A stretch of 40,838 nucleotides of DNA from a bacterium (GTDB lineage: Bacteria > Zixibacteria > MSB-5A5 > WJJR01): positions 1 to 40,838 of the forward strand of contig DATMBC010000014.1 of NCBI GenBank assembly GCA_035559435.1, written 5' to 3'. Position numbers and translations under genes: made by a program. Each line of letters opens with the position of its first letter. The first letter of the stretch is position 1. Under the pieces are notes generated by a model. The model saw nothing but the letters and a program-made list of their open reading frames with translations, did no database searches and was not told the DNA's origin. Positions 3,881 through 35,479 of this stretch are shown here, in pieces.

Positions 3881-5524
3881 ATGGCCGAACATGATGACCG
3901 TTTGCGACGGATCGAAGAGCGCTTAAGCGCGATCGAGGCGCGTCTGGGTATTTCCCCCTCCGCACCACCAACGGCCCCGCCGACACCCACCCCCCTGCCG
4001 GTCGCGCCACGGCCGCAGCCATCTTCTCTCCCCCGGCCCGCCCCCTCCGGAGTCGGCATCTCGGCCACCACGGTGCTGGGTTGGGGCGGGGTGGCAGCTC
4101 TGGTGCTGGCCGCCGCCTATTTGATTCGGCTGGCCATCGATTCCGGCTGGCTCACACCGGAACGCCAAGTCGGGATGGCCGGAGTCTTCGGGATGGCGCT
4201 GATCGTCGCAGGGTTGTTGATGCGGGAAGGATATCGCCGCTACGGCAGTCTCTTGCCCGCTGGCGGAATTGCGGTGCTCTTTCTCACTGTCTATGGCGCC
4301 CATCTCTACCACAAACTGATCGGGCCGATGCCGGCCGCGGTCGGAGTGGTGGTCATCTGCCTCGGAGCGCTGGCGCTGCGCGAGCATTACAAGAACGAAC
4401 TCTACACCTTCTTCGCGGTCGTTGGCTCCTACACCGGGCCGTACTTCCTCCATGCGCTGGCGGCGCGTCCCCTGGACCTGGTGATCTATTTCGCCGCGTG
4501 GGATCTGCTCTTTTGCGGCTATGCGCTGCGCGCCGGATGGCGCTCGGTCTACCTGCTTTCCGCCTACCTCGCCTTTGTCGTCTTCGACGCATCGTGGCGC
4601 ATGGCCGAGCATGCCGATTGGGTCTGGGCCGCCGGTTTTCAGGCGGCGCAGTTCGTCATCTTCCTGGCCGCGACCATCCTCTATTCGGTGCGGCATCGCG
4701 CGCCGCTCAAAGAGCACGAAGCGACCCTGCATTTGCCGCCGCTGCTGTTCTTCTATGCGATGGAATACGCCATCCTCGGGCGCTACATCCCTGATGCCGC
4801 TCCCTGGCTGGCGCTGGCCAGCGTGGCCGCCCTCTGGATCGGTTACCTGATTGCGCGGCAGCGCCTGGACGATGACGCCAAAGCCGGCGAGCAGGTGGTG
4901 GCGACCTATGCCGCCATCGCGCTCTTCCACGCCGGGTATATCGAATTGGTCCCCGATGGCTGGGGCGCGTTCACCGGCCTGATCGCGGCGGCGGTCTTTG
5001 CTGTGGTGGCGTCGCGCGCATCCAATTGGATCCGTCGCCTCTGGCCGCTGGCCGTCGCTTTCGCAATCGTCGCCTTCCTCGGCTATGCCCGTCTGGCCAT
5101 CGGCGGACAACTGCATGAAGTGGTCGCCTGGCGCGTGCTGATCCCGCTATATGCCGCCGTGCTCTATGCCGCGTACTGGATCCTGCGCGGACGCGACACA
5201 CAGCGCCTGCCCGCGCTCGCCAGTCTCTATTTCGCCCACCTGATCGTCATGGCCGGCGCGGTGCACTTCACCGACAGCCGCTTTGTCGTGTCGATTGTCT
5301 GGGGACTGCTCGCGGTCGCGGCGCTGGTGATCTCGATGACCACCGGCGACCGACGCCTGGGGCGGTCATCGCTTCTGGTCTTCGCCGCCTTTGCCGCCAA
5401 GGTCCTGCTCTTCGATTTGTCGGGAACGGCGCCGTTGGTGCGGATCGGATGCCTGGTGGTGTTGGGGGTGACACTATATGTCGGCGGCCTGCTATATCAA
5501 CGGATCGATACAAAACCCAGTTGA
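3881..5524 (+). CDS. DUF2339 polytopic membrane protein
   Basis: I place the start at 3881 because GGAGG sits at 3872-3876; a longer frame from 3818 lacks such a site. The 547-residue product has a short charged coiled coil (residues 1-22, DDRLRRIEERLSAIEARLG), a Pro/Ala-rich linker (23-55), then more than a dozen hydrophobic helices to the C-terminus, beginning with TVLGWGGVAALVLAAAYLIRLAI. This order of coiled coil, Pro-rich linker and many helices is characteristic of DUF2339 family membrane proteins. The role of the family is unknown to me. The gene lies 132 bases downstream of the receptor gene and may be read from it or on its own. The alternative that it is a generic transporter is less likely, because no transporter motif is visible. 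Confidence 0.8.
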   Translation: MAEHDDRLRRIEERLSAIEARLGISPSAPPTAPPTPTPLPVAPRPQPSSLPRPAPSGVGISATTVLGWGGVAALVLAAAYLIRLAIDSGWLTPERQVGMAGVFGMALIVAGLLMREGYRRYGSLLPAGGIAVLFLTVYGAHLYHKLIGPMPAAVGVVVICLGALALREHYKNELYTFFAVVGSYTGPYFLHALAARPLDLVIYFAAWDLLFCGYALRAGWRSVYLLSAYLAFVVFDASWRMAEHADWVWAAGFQAAQFVIFLAATILYSVRHRAPLKEHEATLHLPPLLFFYAMEYAILGRYIPDAAPWLALASVAALWIGYLIARQRLDDDAKAGEQVVATYAAIALFHAGYIELVPDGWGAFTGLIAAAVFAVVASRASNWIRRLWPLAVAFAIVAFLGYARLAIGGQLHEVVAWRVLIPLYAAVLYAAYWILRGRDTQRLPALASLYFAHLIVMAGAVHFTDSRFVVSIVWGLLAVAALVISMTTGDRRLGRSSLLVFAAFAAKVLLFDLSGTAPLVRIGCLVVLGVTLYVGGLLYQRIDTKPS

Positions 5525-28353: not shown

Positions 28354-28854
28354 TCAACGCCCAGACGGGGCGCCCTCGGAGTCTGAACGAGGGGTCAGCG
28401 AATGCCAGAGGACCGAAATCGACATGAGCAGATAGCCGATCACCATCAGGACGGAACTGGGATACAAAAGCCAGACCATGCCAGACCAACCCAACGCAAT
28501 CAGCCACAGCGAGCCAAAGGTTGTCAAAAGCGACAACAACGTTTCCGCCGCCCAGAACGTTTTCAGGCGGTCCGAACCATCGGTCGCGGCATAGAGCAGC
28601 GCCACGAGAAAGAACAAAAGCCCCATACCCAGAAGATGCGTGTGGACGATGCCCAGCATCTCCGCCGTCGACTTGCCGAACTTGAGCTCTTCCTCGTTGC
28701 CGTGGTAATGATCGGAGATGCCGGATGCCGCCATTCCGGTGTTATGATACACGAACGCCAATCCGGCGGCATAACCGACCAGACCGACCAGAATGAAGGC
28801 GGCGATGGTTACCCGGTACACCGCCGGCAGCGTCCGCAGTCGCAGCGCAATCAT
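28354..28854 (-). CDS. Four-helix membrane protein with conserved-looking histidines
   Basis: This 166-residue protein starts by ATGA overlap with the FMN-binding gene. It has four hydrophobic helices (about 13-36, 66-91, 98-121 and 124-150). Histidines stand at membrane edges: H37 (FVYHNTG), H49 and H51 (SDHYHGNEEE), H71 and H73 (GIVHTHLLGMG). A periplasmic SDHYHGNEEELKFGKSTAEML segment lies between the first two helices. I recall similar small membrane proteins, with a HY.G.EEE..F.KS stretch and a THTHL helix, in metal-reducing delta-proteobacteria, usually without an assigned function. The histidine pairs could bind b-type haem or a metal. Position after ApbE and the FMN protein suggests it passes electrons to or from the flavin. 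This is inference. Confidence 0.72.
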   Translation of the reverse strand: MIALRLRTLPAVYRVTIAAFILVGLVGYAAGLAFVYHNTGMAASGISDHYHGNEEELKFGKSTAEMLGIVHTHLLGMGLLFFLVALLYAATDGSDRLKTFWAAETLLSLLTTFGSLWLIALGWSGMVWLLYPSSVLMVIGYLLMSISVLWHSLTPRSDSEGAPSGR

Positions 28855-29438
28855 GGCGTAGGGCTCCCTTCCTGCAAGATCGCCGCCACCGCCAGCGCCT
28901 TGCGCACACCGACGTTGAGCGCGTTGACCGAAATCGTGGCGCCGGTGATGTTGACGATGTCGCGATTGATGCGCAACGGCGACTCCAGCGACTTTCCGCG
29001 GTACTGTTTCAGAAAACGGGTGTGCCGAATCTCACCGCCGCGGCTTTCGCGGTAGATCAGCACACGGACATCGACGATCCGCAGCGTGGTGTCGATCCCG
29101 GCCATGTAGGTAATGGGACGGTACTTCCCCTTCTCCTCCCCGACCACCGCCCAACCGACGGATTGACCGGCCTCGAAGACTCGGTAGAAGACAAACGCGG
29201 TGTCACGGATCTCCCCGCCGAGGCGGGCGTGCAGATCGGCGGCGACGGCCGGTTCGACACGCAGAAGCCCGGGTTGCGCCGAGTCCGCATCGGGAAAGAT
29301 CGCCGTCAGCGCCTCCGCCTCCGAGGCCAGTACTTCGACCGCGCCGATCTCCTCCTCGGTGGGCGGCTCCTCCGCCGACGACGCCGTCACGGTCAGCAAT
29401 ACGGCCAGCGTCACAATCCAGGGCCAACGGCGCGTCAT
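28851..29438 (-). CDS. Exported FMN-binding (RnfG/NqrC-type) protein
   Basis: The 195-residue protein starts by ATGA overlap with the apbE gene. It has a signal peptide (MTRRWPWIVTLAVLLTVTASSA) and an FMN-binding domain. The flavinylation motif is ITGATIS (T165-T168) near the end, where ApbE attaches FMN through a phosphoester bond to the threonine. Upstream strands (VGWAVVGEEKGKYRPITYMAGID and RIVDVRVLIYRESRGGEI) are typical of the family. Coupling with apbE upstream and the small membrane protein downstream forms an extracytosolic flavin electron-transfer module. The partner enzyme is not a normal Rnf or Nqr complex, because no other subunits are present. Confidence 0.87.
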   Translation of the reverse strand: MTRRWPWIVTLAVLLTVTASSAEEPPTEEEIGAVEVLASEAEALTAIFPDADSAQPGLLRVEPAVAADLHARLGGEIRDTAFVFYRVFEAGQSVGWAVVGEEKGKYRPITYMAGIDTTLRIVDVRVLIYRESRGGEIRHTRFLKQYRGKSLESPLRINRDIVNITGATISVNALNVGVRKALAVAAILQEGSPTP

Positions 29439-30475
29439 ACCGGCTCAACCTCCAGCGGGCCAATCACGCGCACCCCTGACAATCCGCCTTTGTGATCGCG
29501 ATGAATCAGGACCGCCGCCGCATCCTTGCGTCCATTCAACCAGCGCACCGCGTCGGCCATGCCCATGACATAGAGCCCCGACGATGTCGCGTCGGCCATC
29601 AGTCCGTCGTTGGCGAACACGGTCACCGACAGGAGGTCGGAGACGGACGGCGCGCCGCGACGCGGGTCCATCAGATGCCCGTGGCGGTGTCCGGTCGCGT
29701 CAACGCGGTAAGTCTCATAGACAGCCGATGTCGCGGCGGTACGGAAACGGTGCCGCACGGTCAACACCGGTTCACTGCGCTGGCCGCGCGGGTCGCGGAT
29801 TGCGCATGTCCAAGGTCCGGCATCGTTCGCGGCGCGAAAAATGTCGCCGCCGCAGTTGGCGCGCGCCTCGACCGCTCCGGCCCGCAATCCCGCATTGGCC
29901 GCCTCCTCGGCGGCCAGCCCCTTGGCCCAACCGCCGGAGTCGATGGCGAGGCGGGCCGATTCGCGCCGGATCACGCCACCGCACACATCGCATTCCACGC
30001 CCCGGTAATTCCAATCGCGCTGATCCGCCGGCGGGCGAATCACACCGGCGGACTCATCGCGAAATCCCCAACGCTTCATCAGGCGCTCAATGGTGGGATC
30101 AAACAGTCCCTCCAGCGCCGCAGACCACCGCAGACTGCGGTCGATTGCATCCAGCACGACAGGGTCATCGATAGCGACCGTCAGCGTGTCGGCGGCATTG
30201 AAGCGCGACAGCGGGGTGCGCGCATCGAAGACCGAGAAACTCTGGTCGATCCGACGGATGGCATCGGCCATCGCCGTCAAGGCGGCCTCGCCGGCCTGCG
30301 GCGACTCGGCCACCGCCTCCAGGTGACTCCATCCGCCCATCGCCCACAGTGGGCGACGGAAGGTGGCACGGCCCGTCGAACCCGCCCAGGCGGTCAACGC
30401 ACGCGGACAGGCGAGCGCGCCAGCGGCCAGAAGCCCCATGCTCAGAAGACGGCGGCGGCTGATGTGTGTGGTCAT
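29435..30475 (-). CDS. apbE: ApbE-type FAD:protein FMN transferase
   Basis: The ATG at 30475 starts a 346-residue protein with a Tat-like SRRRLLSMGLLAAG leader, which places it in the periplasm. Family elements seen are GLFDPTIERLMKRWGF (residues about 123-138), IDSGGWAKGLAAE, an ANCGGDIF segment, HGHLMDPRRGAPS, and VFANDGLMADATSSGLYVMG, the last holding the metal-binding Asp and Thr of the active site. ApbE uses FAD and Mg to attach FMN to threonine of target proteins. Its target here is almost certainly the FMN-binding protein encoded by the overlapping next gene. It is 27 bases downstream of the porin gene. Confidence 0.9.
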   Translation of the reverse strand: MTTHISRRRLLSMGLLAAGALACPRALTAWAGSTGRATFRRPLWAMGGWSHLEAVAESPQAGEAALTAMADAIRRIDQSFSVFDARTPLSRFNAADTLTVAIDDPVVLDAIDRSLRWSAALEGLFDPTIERLMKRWGFRDESAGVIRPPADQRDWNYRGVECDVCGGVIRRESARLAIDSGGWAKGLAAEEAANAGLRAGAVEARANCGGDIFRAANDAGPWTCAIRDPRGQRSEPVLTVRHRFRTAATSAVYETYRVDATGHRHGHLMDPRRGAPSVSDLLSVTVFANDGLMADATSSGLYVMGMADAVRWLNGRKDAAAVLIHRDHKGGLSGVRVIGPLEVEPV

Positions 30476-30502
30476 AGTTTCCAGGGTGCGTTGATCATGA
30501 TC

Positions 30503-31711
30503 CTAGAAATACGTGGCCAGCGAAAGACTGAACAGCTTCGCCGGCTTCGACCAGGTTTCCAGCCCGACCTTGCGACTCCAGTTCCAGCTATAGTCGACCT
30601 TGACCACCGTCATTTCCACCGGGCGGAAATTCAGCCCGAGAGTGGCTGTCTGCTCATCGTCGCCGTCGCGGTCGGAGTCGTAATCGACACGGTCCCAACG
30701 AACCACGCCGGTGAACACTGATTCGGGGTACCGGCGAATCGCGCCAAATCCAAAGTGATAGCCGGCCTGCGCATACCAGCCAATCTGTGACTCAGCGGTC
30801 GGGCTGCCGTCCGGCACATCGGCCGAGACCAGCGCGCCCTCGCCCAGCAGCTGCAACGGACCCCGTTGCAGATCGACATCGAGCGCCGCGATCGACAGCG
30901 ACCGCTCTCCGGCGTTGTCGTATTTGCCGAAGTGGCCCGATAGCCCCAGATCGACGCCCAGCGCCGGTGAGACCGAGACACGCCCGGCCAACGACTTGTT
31001 CTCGTTGTTGTCGGTCTTGTGCGAGCCGCGCCCGCCGCGCACGCGCAGCTGCTGCTTGCTGTCGATGATCTTCTGATTGAACCCGTTGACCAAGTAAAGT
31101 TCATACCCCACAACCCAATCCTGCGGATAGAAGGCGCCGTAAATCCCCATGCCCGCCTCCGAAAGCGTCGTCGGCAACAGTTGGCGCGACACCGTCGGAC
31201 GGTTGGTCAGATCATTGAGGGGCGAATCGTGATTGAGATTGAAGCGCCCAAGGGGTGTCAGCAGCAGTCCGGCGCGCACGTTCAACGCGTCGGCCAGTGC
31301 CCAATCCATAAAGGCGAATTCCAGTTTGATTTCGCCGTCGGTGGTCGAGTTGCTGATCTTGTCGATGTTGCCGTCGCCGTTGCTGTCGCTGCCGCTGGCC
31401 GAGCCGGAGCGAACAAAGCCGCCATACTCGAACTCGATTTCCGCGGTCACATGGATGTAGTCGACCGGCTGGGCGTAGATGAACGGGATGAAACGGTGGG
31501 TGGTGAAAGTCGAGGTCGAGTCGGTCATGAACAGTTCGTGGTCCATGTAGCCGCCGAGGGCGATGCCGCCGGCAAAGTTCTTCAGGTAGGGTTTGTCCGT
31601 CACGCCGCCCGGCACGACCGGACGCGGTGGGCGCGTTTGGCCCGTGGCGGGTGAGGCCAGCACAAGCGGCCACAGTGCGGCCAACAGGATGAAACGATGG
31701 ATACGGTTCAC
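30503..31711 (-). CDS. Outer-membrane porin of the flavin operon
   Basis: A GTG at 31711 with GGAGG at the right distance (four bases) is chosen over a longer frame. The 402-residue product has a signal peptide (VNRIHRFILLAALWPLVLA, cleavage near TGQ) and then a barrel. Its features are alternating strands, an EFEYGG segment, a periplasmic or loop DSNGDGNID that resembles a calcium-binding loop, and the C-terminal LFSLSLATYF ending in Phe. The pattern resembles phosphate-selective porin O/P-like barrels of about 400 residues. It is the first gene of the porin, apbE, FMN and membrane-protein transcript, about 120 bases downstream of a DtxR-type operator. Its cargo could be iron chelates or flavin; this is not visible. 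Confidence 0.8.
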   Translation of the reverse strand: MNRIHRFILLAALWPLVLASPATGQTRPPRPVVPGGVTDKPYLKNFAGGIALGGYMDHELFMTDSTSTFTTHRFIPFIYAQPVDYIHVTAEIEFEYGGFVRSGSASGSDSNGDGNIDKISNSTTDGEIKLEFAFMDWALADALNVRAGLLLTPLGRFNLNHDSPLNDLTNRPTVSRQLLPTTLSEAGMGIYGAFYPQDWVVGYELYLVNGFNQKIIDSKQQLRVRGGRGSHKTDNNENKSLAGRVSVSPALGVDLGLSGHFGKYDNAGERSLSIAALDVDLQRGPLQLLGEGALVSADVPDGSPTAESQIGWYAQAGYHFGFGAIRRYPESVFTGVVRWDRVDYDSDRDGDDEQTATLGLNFRPVEMTVVKVDYSWNWSRKVGLETWSKPAKLFSLSLATYF

Positions 31712-31829
31712 ACAACCTCCAGCAATCGGTGATGGACCCGGCGCATCGGGACGCAAGGGGGCCGCACGCCGGGTCGGCGCGGCCGGCCGCCAGACACAAT
31801 CGTCACCCTGGGCGGCCGCGCCAGGGATC

Positions 31830-31851
31830 GATTGTTAGGCATGCCTAACTT
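31830..31851. promoter_or_regulatory. DtxR-type operator ahead of the porin/apbE operon
   Basis: The core TTAGGCATGCCTAA (31835-31848) is a perfect palindrome, matching the TTAGG-N4-CCTAA halves of DtxR/IdeR boxes. The 22-base window shares 18 positions with the operator in the dtxR promoter at 32394-32415. It lies between the dtxR stop and the porin start, about 120 bases upstream of the porin GTG. No convincing -35 or -10 flanks it. Confidence 0.82.
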
Positions 31852-31874
31852 ATGGGCGAAAAAAGAGAGGAATC

Positions 31875-32372
31875 TCATCGTTTGACCAATTCGCAGGTCG
31901 CTTCCAACTCGCAGTCGCGGCAACGCTCGCCGGCCAGGCGCAGTTCGAGATACTCATGGAAGTGCTCGATCATCCCGGAGATGTCCATCCGGCAGTGCTG
32001 CATGTAGTCGAGAAAGGCGGTGAGCCGCTGCAGTGTCTCCGGCCCCATGACATGCTCGATCTCGCAGGCGTCGCGGGCGGCGGTCCGCGGCGCAACCTGC
32101 AGCACATCGGTGAAGAAGCGCTGCAGGATCTCAAACCGCAGGTTGATCGCCTCGGCTGTGCGCCGTCCCCGCGCCGACAACTGCACCGCGCCATAGGACG
32201 GATGCAGGACCAGCCCCCGCGCCCGCAGCGACCGCAGCGCCTCCGACACCGAGGGCATGGTCACCCCCAGCGCCTCGGCGATCGCCTTGACCCGCACCGG
32301 CTGCCCGTCGGCCCCCAGACGCAGAATCGTCTTGAGGTACATCTCCATGTTCGATGACAGCGCCTTGGACAT
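31875..32372 (-). CDS. DtxR/IdeR-family metal-dependent repressor with C-terminal Cys cluster
   Basis: The ATG at 32372 gives 165 residues: a winged helix at about 5-75 (NMEMYLKTIL, RVKAIAEALGVTMPSVSEALRSL) and a dimerisation/metal domain. The primary metal site is kept: M11, C103, E106 and H107 in DACEIEHVMG, the Met/Cys pair being the iron-type pattern of DtxR rather than the MntR one. Aligned with DtxR from memory, the ancillary-site residues H79, E83 and H98 are F80, Q84 and A99. The C-terminus carries CRDCELEATCELVKR (C151, C154, C160), and C127 lies close in sequence. The SH3-like third domain of DtxR is absent. It should repress its own gene and the porin operon when iron is plentiful. 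Confidence 0.85.
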   Translation of the reverse strand: MSKALSSNMEMYLKTILRLGADGQPVRVKAIAEALGVTMPSVSEALRSLRARGLVLHPSYGAVQLSARGRRTAEAINLRFEILQRFFTDVLQVAPRTAARDACEIEHVMGPETLQRLTAFLDYMQHCRMDISGMIEHFHEYLELRLAGERCRDCELEATCELVKR

Positions 32373-32392
32373 GCGTCGCTCCCGCGGTGATG

Positions 32393-32421
32393 AGATTATT
32401 AGGGCGGCCTAACTTAGTCAA
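32393..32421 (-). promoter_or_regulatory. dtxR promoter with operator in the spacer
   Basis: On the minus strand TTGACT (32416-32421) is followed by exactly 17 bases and TAATCT (32393-32398). The operator core TTAGGCCGCCCTAA (minus-strand reading of 32399-32412) fills the spacer. A repressor bound there would block RNA polymerase, giving autoregulation. The -10 is weak (three of six), but the geometry fits and the ATG is about 20 bases downstream. Confidence 0.75.
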
Positions 32422-32483: not shown

Positions 32484-34202
32484 TCAGGAGGGACGATCCA
32501 GCCCCACGATGCGGAAGAGATTCGGCACGGGATCCAGATACAGATAGACGCTGCAGGCCTTGGCCCCGGCGCGGCGCGGGGTAATATCGAGACGGAAGAC
32601 GCGCTCCCGGCCGGCGCCGGAATTGGACGCGACCGCGACCAGCCGCGAACGAACCGTGTCATCGAGGACGACGATCGGCGCCGAAGCCACGCCCTCCTGC
32701 GACCCGAGGCGGCCCGCCACCCGGTCGAGAGACCATCGGTATTCCATCGCGCCGCCCTCTCCCACCCCGTCGGCAATCACCCGATCGACAAACCGGAGCG
32801 TGACGGAATCGCCGGTGTCGTCAAGCGTGAACGCGTCCAGCGGAGAGGTCTTGGCGTAATAGTACGCCAGAATCTTGTTCCGCCGCACCCACAGATGCCT
32901 GACCAAATACTCGGTCGCGGCCGGATCACTGTACGCGGCGGTCTCGACACAGGCGCGCAGATCATCTTCAGTGAACTGCGACAGGATGCGGCAGGCCCAG
33001 AACGCGTCGGCGTGCGTCATGTTGTCGAACGCCGGATTGGCATGCAGCGGCTTCCATCCCGGCGGATCGAACAGGTCGCTTTCGAAATACCCGACCGCCG
33101 CGGGGATCCCGCGCGGATCGGCCTCCTCCCATGCCCAGCGCCGCAGCCCCAGCGTCACCAGCGACACCAACGCCTGCTCGAGATCGAGAACGTAGGCATA
33201 CCCCTTGTAGACCGACTTGGGTTCGTCGCCGTCGGATCCGAGCGTGGAGCCGAAGTCGATCAGGTAGTGACGGACAAACCGGCGCCCGTCCTCCTCAACC
33301 ACGACGTCCAGCGAGTTGTGGTCCTTGGTGTCGAAATGATTCGTCAGCTGCGCGAAGATTTTCAGCCCGCGCAGTTCACGGCGATGTTCATGCGGTACGC
33401 GGTCGTTGGGATCATCGCGACGCACGCCTTTGTAGGAAAACGGTCCGATCGGTGCGCCCGGCAACAGACGGCTGGCCACGGCGCGGATCGTGCCGTCGGG
33501 ACGACGCGCCACCTTCGCCAGCACCCGCTCTAGTTCCTCGCGCGTGAATGGATACTGCCGCCCCCTTGAGTCCTTGACTTGCAGTCCGTCGCGAATCACC
33601 AGCCGCGCCGGATCGAACGTGACCAGGTAGTTCTCCGGCACATGATAGCCGAACGCGTGGAACAGTTTGGTGGAGATCATCTCCGCGCCGGTGGCCAACT
33701 CGGGATGCGCCGCCGGATCGAACTTGAGAATGAAGGTCTCGCCCGCCGCGTCCTTAATGAAGAATCCTGGCGTGACGCCCTCGGTTTTGGCGCGGGTGAT
33801 CGTCCAGACGCCGGCGGTGTCCGGGCCGGCGATCCGATTGGGACCGCGCTGGAGCTCGTCCCGGCTCAGACGCGTCCGGCCATGGCGATGGGTAAACCAA
33901 CTCGAATTGGGAATCTCGCCGAAGACATCGGCGTTGACCGCCTCGTGCATCCGGCCGGTCAGCTTGCGGAGCTGCCGCGGCAGATCCAGCGACTGCTCCA
34001 ATAGATAGAAGGAACTCTGATGCACGGCGTCCCAGTAGAGACTGGGGTCGCGCTCGCGCGGATCGACGCTGATGTCCGTCCACTCCGGCGCGACCGTCGG
34101 CGGTTCCAGCAGACTCCACTCCGCCCGGGAGGCGCATCCCAGCCCGGCGGCCGCCGCCACGGCGCCGACCAGCCCGATCATCCATCGCCGCAGGCGCCGC
34201 AT
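32484..34202 (-). CDS. Predicted lipoprotein with a protein-kinase-like core
   Basis: The ATG at 34202 overlaps the Omp85 gene stop as TAATG, giving 572 residues with a basic start, a hydrophobic stretch and a lipobox-like GLGC (C23). Residues 145-320 show a kinase-like series: GETFILKFDP (K160, like the beta-3 lysine), a GAEMISTKLF helix (E174), HFDTKDHN (289-296, with H, D, K and N at the HRDxKxxN spacing), and LIDFGSTLG (DFG at 316-318). The glycine-rich loop is not clear. Such a set suggests an atypical kinase-like fold, perhaps HipA- or PI-kinase-like. As the protein is exported, ATP supply is a puzzle; it may be a pseudokinase or use another donor. The pairing with the Omp85 barrel implies a surface or export role. 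Confidence 0.68.
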   Translation of the reverse strand: MRRLRRWMIGLVGAVAAAAGLGCASRAEWSLLEPPTVAPEWTDISVDPRERDPSLYWDAVHQSSFYLLEQSLDLPRQLRKLTGRMHEAVNADVFGEIPNSSWFTHRHGRTRLSRDELQRGPNRIAGPDTAGVWTITRAKTEGVTPGFFIKDAAGETFILKFDPAAHPELATGAEMISTKLFHAFGYHVPENYLVTFDPARLVIRDGLQVKDSRGRQYPFTREELERVLAKVARRPDGTIRAVASRLLPGAPIGPFSYKGVRRDDPNDRVPHEHRRELRGLKIFAQLTNHFDTKDHNSLDVVVEEDGRRFVRHYLIDFGSTLGSDGDEPKSVYKGYAYVLDLEQALVSLVTLGLRRWAWEEADPRGIPAAVGYFESDLFDPPGWKPLHANPAFDNMTHADAFWACRILSQFTEDDLRACVETAAYSDPAATEYLVRHLWVRRNKILAYYYAKTSPLDAFTLDDTGDSVTLRFVDRVIADGVGEGGAMEYRWSLDRVAGRLGSQEGVASAPIVVLDDTVRSRLVAVASNSGAGRERVFRLDITPRRAGAKACSVYLYLDPVPNLFRIVGLDRPS

Positions 34203-35479
34203 TAGAAGGAGTCCCCGAAGTTGATGTAGAATCCCCATTCGTCGGTGCCCTTGGCCACCAGAAGGGCCAGATGCCCGGCGTTATTCCAGAACCGCAATCC
34301 GCCGCCGTACGACGATCGGAAATCGGAGAATTCGAAGTCCCTGAGCAGATCGTGGAAGACGCGGCCATGGTCGGAAAGCAACAGCGCATCGATGCGCCGC
34401 CACAGCGGCCAGCGGTACTCCAGCGACAGGGCGGCATACCCCCGATCGCGGAAACGCCCTGTCTTGTAGCCGCGCAGCAACTGCGACCCTCCCAGTTTCG
34501 CCAGTTCATAGAAGGGCACACGCGTCCCGGGGTCCGGTTCGATATGCTCGGCGGTCAGGCGGACACCGATCACCCGCTCGTGGAACAACTCGAAGAAGTG
34601 CGACACGTCGCCGTGCACGCGCCAGAACCCGACCGCCGTGTCGGCGCGACCTTCCCCCATCGTGTACGTCACCGCCACGGCAGCGGCGCCGCCGCCCAAC
34701 GGCGAGGGCGGACGCTCGCGCCAATCGCCGGCCACTTGCGCGCCCAAGTCATACAGATCCAGCCGCTCGAAGAGGCCGTAGAGGTCCTGCCCGGCGAACC
34801 GCGCCGCGATCGAATCCCGATCATGTGGAATGCGCTGCAGACGGCCGTCCTCCGGATCAATGCGCCGCCATCCGCCCGACAGCGACACTTCGCCGCGCTC
34901 GCCCAGCGCGCGGTACAGATGCAGCGCGGCGAACCCGCCGCGGTAACCGTAGTTGGATTGATCTTTCCGCGAGGACCCCGGACCGATGCCATAAAAGCGC
35001 TCGCGTGTGTCGGCACGCCAGCCCCCATCGACGGCTGCGCCGTAGGCCGAGCCGTGGAGCCGGCGATCGCCGAGACGCGCCGCCGCGAAGCGATAGGTGT
35101 TGGTCGAATACGTGCCCCGGAGCGACAGCGGAATATCGGAGCCAAAGGCGCTCCGCGTGAAATAGGCCGCTCCCAGCGTCAACCCGGTGCGCGCTTTGTA
35201 GCCCACCACCGGATAGATGCCCCAGGGATCGTCAAAGGCAAACAGGCGCTCGATGCGGTGCGGGAGTGTCGATTCCTCAACCAGCACGACCGGACCGGAG
35301 ACCGCGGCGCCGAGAACCCAGAACGGCGCCTTCAGCGCCACCGACGGCACCGCGAGGATATAATCAAGCGCGTCGCGCGGCGGCTTCTGAACGCCGCCGC
35401 TGGAGTCGGCGTCGCCGGCGCGCGCAATCCCGCACGTCAGGAGCCAGATGACTCCGACAATCAGTTCCGCGGTTCGCAT
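34202..35479 (-). CDS. Omp85/BamA-like outer-membrane barrel (bacterial surface antigen domain)
   Basis: The ATG at 35479 (MRTAELIVGVIWLLTCGIARA) carries a signal peptide. The 425-residue product is barrel-like, beginning with a short periplasmic part that has no recognisable POTRA repeats. Near the C-terminus ELAKLGGSQLLRGYKTGRFRDRGYAALSLEYRWPL is the classic GG..LRGY...RF.D....EYR element of the Omp85 surface-antigen domain. The protein ends FYINFGDSF with terminal Phe. POTRA-less members are found in several phyla and may act as transporters or lipases. It overlaps the kinase-like lipoprotein gene by one base, so the two are co-translated; a complex is likely. Confidence 0.84.
   Translation of the reverse strand: MRTAELIVGVIWLLTCGIARAGDADSSGGVQKPPRDALDYILAVPSVALKAPFWVLGAAVSGPVVLVEESTLPHRIERLFAFDDPWGIYPVVGYKARTGLTLGAAYFTRSAFGSDIPLSLRGTYSTNTYRFAAARLGDRRLHGSAYGAAVDGGWRADTRERFYGIGPGSSRKDQSNYGYRGGFAALHLYRALGERGEVSLSGGWRRIDPEDGRLQRIPHDRDSIAARFAGQDLYGLFERLDLYDLGAQVAGDWRERPPSPLGGGAAAVAVTYTMGEGRADTAVGFWRVHGDVSHFFELFHERVIGVRLTAEHIEPDPGTRVPFYELAKLGGSQLLRGYKTGRFRDRGYAALSLEYRWPLWRRIDALLLSDHGRVFHDLLRDFEFSDFRSSYGGGLRFWNNAGHLALLVAKGTDEWGFYINFGDSF

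Follow-up and report, generated by a model that had tools for sequence, protein, structure and literature searches.

In a Candidatus Zixiibacteriota genome (G000), we found that an operon encoding a probable flavin-based redox system shares its operator with the iron transport genes feoAB. The operon lies in a stretch of 40,838 nucleotides (contig DATMBC010000014.1, assembly GCA_035559435.1), hereafter the window, where the minus strand of positions 28354-32421 carries, in this order, dtxR and the genes for a porin, ApbE, an FMN_bind protein and a small membrane protein. The same operator stands in the dtxR promoter and is conserved at the corresponding genes of related genomes, and in another phylum a similar module is physically linked to feoB. 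Iron control of the flavin operon is well supported by these sequence comparisons. We propose, with fair rather than high confidence, that the operon encodes a reductive iron-uptake module, in which a porin, a flavinylated periplasmic reductase and a membrane electron carrier would feed Feo under the control of an Fe2+-loaded DtxR-type repressor.

One operator at dtxR, feoAB and the flavin operon

The features of the window on which the argument is built are the following.

32393..32421, minus strand: putative dtxR promoter, -35 TTGACT (32416-32421), 17-base spacer and -10-like TAATCT (32393-32398), by direct reading
32399..32412, no strand assigned: operator in the dtxR promoter (putative autoregulation), exact TTAGG-N4-CCTAA, TTAGGGCGGCCTAA
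31875..32372, minus strand: dtxR-family iron-dependent repressor, 165 residues, two-domain, with a Cys-rich C-terminal tail (Pfam Fe_dep_repress and Fe_dep_repr_C; alignment to PDB DtxR)
31834..31849, no strand assigned: operator ahead of the flavin operon, 16-mer GTTAGGCATGCCTAAC
30503..31711, minus strand: outer-membrane porin-like beta-barrel with signal peptide, 402 residues (weak Pfam Porin_O_P match; orthologues)
29435..30475, minus strand: ApbE FAD:protein FMN transferase with a twin-arginine-like signal, 346 residues (Pfam ApbE, 169 bits)
28851..29438, minus strand: secreted FMN_bind protein, predicted ApbE substrate, 195 residues (Pfam FMN_bind, 32.7 bits)
28354..28854, minus strand: four-helix inner-membrane protein with an invariant His71-x-His73, 166 residues (AlphaFold2 model; relatives)

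The original prediction, made from the window alone, had placed two TTAGG-N4-CCTAA cores at 31835-31848 and 32399-32412, and both coordinates are exact. The first reads TTAGGCATGCCTAA and lies 123 bases upstream of the porin ATG. As had also been claimed, the 22-base windows around the two cores, ATTGTTAGGCATGCCTAACTTA and ATTATTAGGGCGGCCTAACTTA, agree at 18 of 22 positions, with four differences counted by direct reading. The second core was said to occupy the 17-base spacer of the dtxR promoter, and it does lie between TTGACT and TAATCT. The promoter itself stands less firmly: its -10 is weak, a consensus promoter scan (threshold 9 of 12) called no dtxR promoter, and the -10 could instead be AATAAT, at a spacing of 15 bases.

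The link to Feo, which was no part of the original prediction, emerged from a third exact core elsewhere in the genome. This copy lies on contig C65 (L001 8360-8373), 29 bases upstream of the start codon of feoA, which is followed by feoB (Pfam FeoA 70.5 bits, FeoB_N 188.6 bits), and the 16-mer at this site is identical to that of the flavin operon. The whole genome (3.0 Mb, 106 contigs) contains three exact cores, and these are the ones at the dtxR promoter, upstream of the flavin operon and upstream of feoAB. Three further sites with one mismatch (C65:66475, C71:29566 and C102:8712) fall within or next to unrelated genes, look like chance occurrences and were set aside.

One would also wonder whether the two palindromes of the window are simply a chance pair. 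The genomic count is compatible with this idea, as it hardly exceeds the one for the reversed control pattern (three against two), and the count in the window becomes chance-like once two mismatches are allowed. The number of cores is therefore no proof, and our argument rests on their positions. On the other hand, 100 dinucleotide shuffles of the window gave no exact core against the two observed, the 16-mer recurs unchanged at feoAB, and the motif is conserved at orthologous operons. The comparative data thus refute a chance pair, to which we give a practically negligible probability.

Conservation of the operator in the phylum

The family comparison covered the window genome and six other genomes of its family, and some of the operator copies carry one mismatch. 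Operators were found at the dtxR genes of G001, G003, G005 and G006, ahead of fur-feoA-feoB in G003 and, in two copies, at feoAB of G004. The flavin operon of G004 is not adjacent to dtxR, yet it bears two operators; none was detectable at dtxR of this genome. In G013, which belongs to another family and has the flavin genes in the order porin-FMN_bind-membrane-ApbE, two operators precede the flavin operon, one lies at feoA and one at the start of feoB. Altogether, the feoAB operator is seen in four genomes (G000, G003, G004 and G013). Conservation at orthologous operons was a check set beforehand, and the motif is present at all three flavin operons whose upstream DNA is on the contig (G000, G004 and G013). 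Its recurrence at dtxR, feoAB and the flavin operon alike, also across the family boundary and despite the changed gene order of G013, leads us to consider that it has been kept by selection.

Among 132 genomes of the phylum, the full palindrome GTTAGGNNNNCCTAAC (GTTAGG-N4-CCTAAC) is present in seven, five of them from this family plus G013 and G045, against roughly 55 for the reversed control pattern. The consensus of 22 operator sites is close to AAGTTAGGCGCGCCTAAC. Within the family, the operator also precedes genes for a TonB-dependent receptor in G001, for a barrel of 250 residues (twice in G002, and in G005 and G006) and for a DUF6607 protein in G004. In the phylum, two copies (G006:C24 and G045:C1) stand beside genes without evident iron link. 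The FMN_bind gene of the module was found in four of the 132 genomes (G000, G003, G004 and G013), and the phylum-wide search for it yielded no further Zixiibacteriota operons.

Some observations concern the surroundings of these genes. In the slot next to dtxR, together with an operator, G001 carries the TonB-dependent receptor and G005 and G006 another barrel (L032:11917-14421, L034:8021-8782 and L035:8246-9052). In G013, a different dtxR, with a FeoA domain, lies under the same operator, and the next gene reads like a DtxR/FeoA fusion (L124:789-2510). Upstream of dtxR in the window (32484-35479), we noticed genes for a protein of 584 residues that has no Pfam family and for a barrel of the Omp85 family. 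A similar pair precedes dtxR in G004 (L033:5079-8131), so that dtxR is syntenic in this genome while the flavin operon is elsewhere.

The regulator and its likely metal

The regulator has a winged helix-turn-helix and a metal-binding/dimerisation domain, both above the Pfam cut-offs. Its Met11, Cys103, Glu106 and His107 align with Met10, Cys102, Glu105 and His106 of the DtxR primary site. The C-terminal SH3-like (FeoA) domain is absent from the 165-residue protein, which ends in a Cys-rich stretch. We thus assign it to the iron-type DtxR superfamily but not to corynebacterial-type DtxR, because this third domain is missing. Concerning the putative targets, control of iron uptake genes by TTAGG/CCTAA half-sites is suggested by the operators at feoAB in the four genomes cited above, with a spacing of N4 and not N9. 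In the corynebacterial regulon, the same half-sites serve iron-dependent repression of iron uptake (PMC524172). The likeness to this system lies in the half-sites and in the iron uptake targets; the corynebacterial tox site is TTAGG-N9-CCTAA (TTAGGATAGCTTTACCTAA), and the spacing and the missing third domain are where the present system departs from it.

In MntR, the first two metal-ligand places are taken by Asp8 and Glu99. Close relatives of the regulator read NMEMYL, with Met at the ligand place, and most of the distant relatives that were read have Asp (xxEDYL or xxQDYL). An Asp-type dtxR paralogue is present in the same genome, where it heads a ZnuA-type ABC transporter operon, and is a natural candidate for manganese or zinc. 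Could the regulator itself sense manganese, the flavin operon then serving manganese or general metal homeostasis? Its best-scoring NCBIfam equivalogs are indeed MntR models, yet they score far below their cut-offs. The Met11/Cys103 ligand pair, the separate paralogue at the ZnuA-type operon and the feoAB operator in four genomes all speak against manganese, which we hold to be very improbable. Because of the Met/Cys ligands, this paralogue and the feoAB operator, iron is the likely metal, and the iron-responsive control that the original prediction had suspected gains support from the same comparison.

The Cys-rich tail (CRDCELEATC, window 31875-31930) is kept in G001, partly kept in G004 and absent in G005 and G006. 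Distant relatives have a CxGC near the same place. A second metal or Fe-S site in this tail is possible.

Products of the flavin operon

The layout is as originally described: ATGA overlaps join ApbE to FMN_bind and FMN_bind to the membrane protein, and the porin is separated from ApbE by a 27-base gap. The porin call comes from a weak hit to Pfam Porin_O_P (22.7 bits against a cut-off of 20.9). Its orthologues share 61% identity in G004, 41% in G013 and 52% in the Gemmatimonadota locus L081.

The N-terminus of ApbE contains SRRRLL, a twin-arginine-like export signal by direct reading. The exported FMN_bind protein bears TGATIS, in agreement with the flavinylation motif [ST]GA[ST]x[ST], and its predicted flavin site is Thr168 within NITGATISV. 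In an alignment of nine sequences from four phyla, D160, G166, A167, T168 and S170 are invariant, so that GAT-x-S is kept throughout. Covalent FMN on Thr168 is a prediction. The earlier proposal of a flavin-based electron-transfer system at the envelope fits these families and the invariant motif; the transfer itself we infer.

The AlphaFold2 model of the membrane protein has four long helices (pLDDT 81.9), and Tyr50, Gly52, His71 and His73 are invariant among nine relatives. A comparison of the model with PDB folds gave no meaningful match (best E 2.5). In a Pfam scan of the protein and eight relatives, no family passed its cut-off; a sub-threshold DUF2871 match (17.8 bits against 27.4) spans the HTHLL stretch. 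By Pfam, it matches none of the donor classes NapH, MsrQ, PepSY, DsbD, NQR/RNF and DUF4405. That haem or a metal could be bound at the HxH motif is a guess.

The module in other phyla

When a genome collection was scanned with the FMN_bind alignment, ten loci came up. A porin, an FMN_bind protein and an HxH membrane protein are all encoded at L081 (Gemmatimonadetes), L082 (Planctomycetes) and L086 (Omnitrophota), and FMN_bind is paired with the membrane protein at L083 (Jettenia) and L085 (Planctomycetota). In two loci (L082:1119-2759 and L083:5278-7098), FMN_bind and ApbE are fused in one open reading frame, which puts the substrate and the flavin transferase in a single polypeptide.

The membrane protein is found in 12 of 47 genomes of the class of L081 (Gemmatimonadota). 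In all nine loci of this group whose contig extends that far, the porin-FMN_bind-membrane module is divergent from feoB. The intergenic region between feoB and the module contains GTTTGG-N4-CCAAAC in six loci (L081, L099, L100, L101, L107 and L109), and in each of these genomes this is the sole exact copy; in a seventh genome, one copy lies at another place. The 6-4-6 geometry of this palindrome is that of the Zixiibacteriota operator, and the two sequences differ by one base in each half. In the Omnitrophota locus, a fur gene (L086:7441-7884; Pfam FUR, 124.5 bits) lies between the membrane protein and FMN_bind genes, and a Fur-box-like sequence, TTGAGAATCATTCTCATTATC, precedes the porin (about 4540-4562). 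Two gammaproteobacterial loci, L087 (6499-9312) and L088 (1033-3670), have a more distant porin and FMN_bind protein, followed by a PepSY-type membrane protein, as called by Pfam PepSY_TM in L087 and by direct reading in L088. The HxH protein thus stands where these two loci have a transmembrane electron carrier of a known type.

The main rival explanation is an iron-sparing swap, in which a flavin-based periplasmic carrier replaces a haem cytochrome under iron limitation, as flavodoxin does for ferredoxin; the operon would then be iron-controlled and have no part in iron uptake. Such an idea is raised in PMC8238504, and Fur control of flavodoxin is among the predictions of PMC545781. A further locus goes in the same direction: in G023 (L076:7070-8379), an FMN_bind-like protein with a CxxCH and without the TGAT site is followed by an HxH membrane protein, as expected of a haem counterpart of the module, which this locus possibly is. 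But an iron-sparing carrier leaves unexplained both the porin and the adjacency to feoB in nine of nine Gemmatimonadota loci, and we regard it as unlikely.

Proposed mechanism and relation to known systems

We come back to reductive iron uptake, which is probably the role of the module. The Fe2+-loaded repressor would bind 5'-(AA)GTTAGG-N4-CCTAAC(TT)-3' and repress dtxR itself, feoAB and the porin-ApbE-FMN_bind-membrane-protein operon, and all three units would be derepressed when cytosolic iron drops. The porin would then admit iron or small iron chelates to the periplasm, and the FMN_bind protein would receive FMN from ApbE at Thr168. The HxH membrane protein could pass electrons to this flavin from the quinone pool or the cytosol, or otherwise couple the flavin to the membrane. 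The flavoprotein would reduce periplasmic Fe3+ to Fe2+, to be imported by FeoB.

The same components could also serve iron-regulated extracellular electron transfer, that is, the respiratory reduction of ferric minerals or shuttles and not assimilation. A porin, a flavoprotein and a membrane redox protein make a plausible outward path, and a flavin-based case is known in Listeria (PMC9973259). However, one would hardly expect genes for iron respiration to be repressed when iron is replete, the operon contains no gene for a multihaem cytochrome and each protein has a single flavin site. Iron uptake is the better reading because the operon is linked to Feo, and a respiratory role appears improbable.

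Several observations weigh against reductive iron uptake under this repressor. Of the three DtxR ancillary ligands (His79, Glu83 and His98), two are replaced in the regulator (His79 by Phe80 and His98 by Ala99). Relatives with the same regulator place other outer-membrane proteins under it (the TonB-dependent receptor of G001 and the unrelated barrel of G002, G005 and G006), and few genomes of the phylum (4 of 132) have the module. At the Gemmatimonadota dtxR genes, no autoregulatory GTTTGG palindrome was found. Finally, the membrane protein matches no known cytochrome family or fold by Pfam and PDB fold search, which makes the electron entry a guess.

Flavinylation has already been tied to iron assimilation by Meheust et al. 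2021 (PMC8238504), who describe clusters of PepSY-like/DUF2271, MsrQ-like/VIT1 and P19-FTR1/FMN_bind type; the PepSY-like clusters are reported there as Fur-repressed in Shewanella and Caulobacter. Like these clusters, the module combines ApbE and/or a secreted flavinylated protein with a membrane protein and a link to an iron transporter. Unlike them, it has a four-helix HxH protein without Pfam family, a porin, FeoAB as the transporter and a DtxR-type regulator, and the words porin and DtxR are absent from the main text of that paper. The novelty is thus in this combination and not in flavinylation-linked iron assimilation as such. A search of open-licence papers on DtxR with flavinylation or ApbE found no description of the gene set or of its control by DtxR.

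Two other likenesses can be drawn. In the Fur regulon of Geobacter and Desulfuromonas, Rodionov et al. 2004 (PMC545781) describe a psp porin weakly similar to PF07396 with tandem Fur boxes, as well as OprB-like porins, and propose a role in ferrous iron transport for such porins. By description, the likeness is to a porin that has tandem boxes for an iron regulator or that stands ahead of feoAB; the regulator there is Fur and not DtxR, and no flavin genes are described with psp. The DUF4405 and FezC cytochromes, which are flavinylation- and ferrosome-associated and proposed to move electrons (PMC11334425, mSystems 2024), are likewise small multi-helix membrane proteins that contain conserved His residues and have links to ApbE clusters or ferrosomes. 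The window protein differs from these in having neither a DUF4405 match nor a PDB fold match.

A broader hypothesis, which we advance tentatively and at slightly less than even chances, is that of an undescribed reductive iron-uptake pathway in at least four phyla. In it, a porin, an FMN_bind reductase flavinylated by ApbE and four-helix HxH electron carriers of a new class would feed FeoB, and they would have been placed independently under DtxR-type repressors in Zixiibacteriota, Fur in Omnitrophota and a 6-N4-6-palindrome repressor in Gemmatimonadota. For an uncultured lineage, the analysis provides the operator sequence of its iron regulon, and it points to a membrane protein family without assigned function. 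FeoB imports Fe2+. A conserved module linked to feoAB in one phylum, and sharing its operator in another, is a testable candidate for the missing reductase that would make this Fe2+ in the periplasm of many Gram-negatives.

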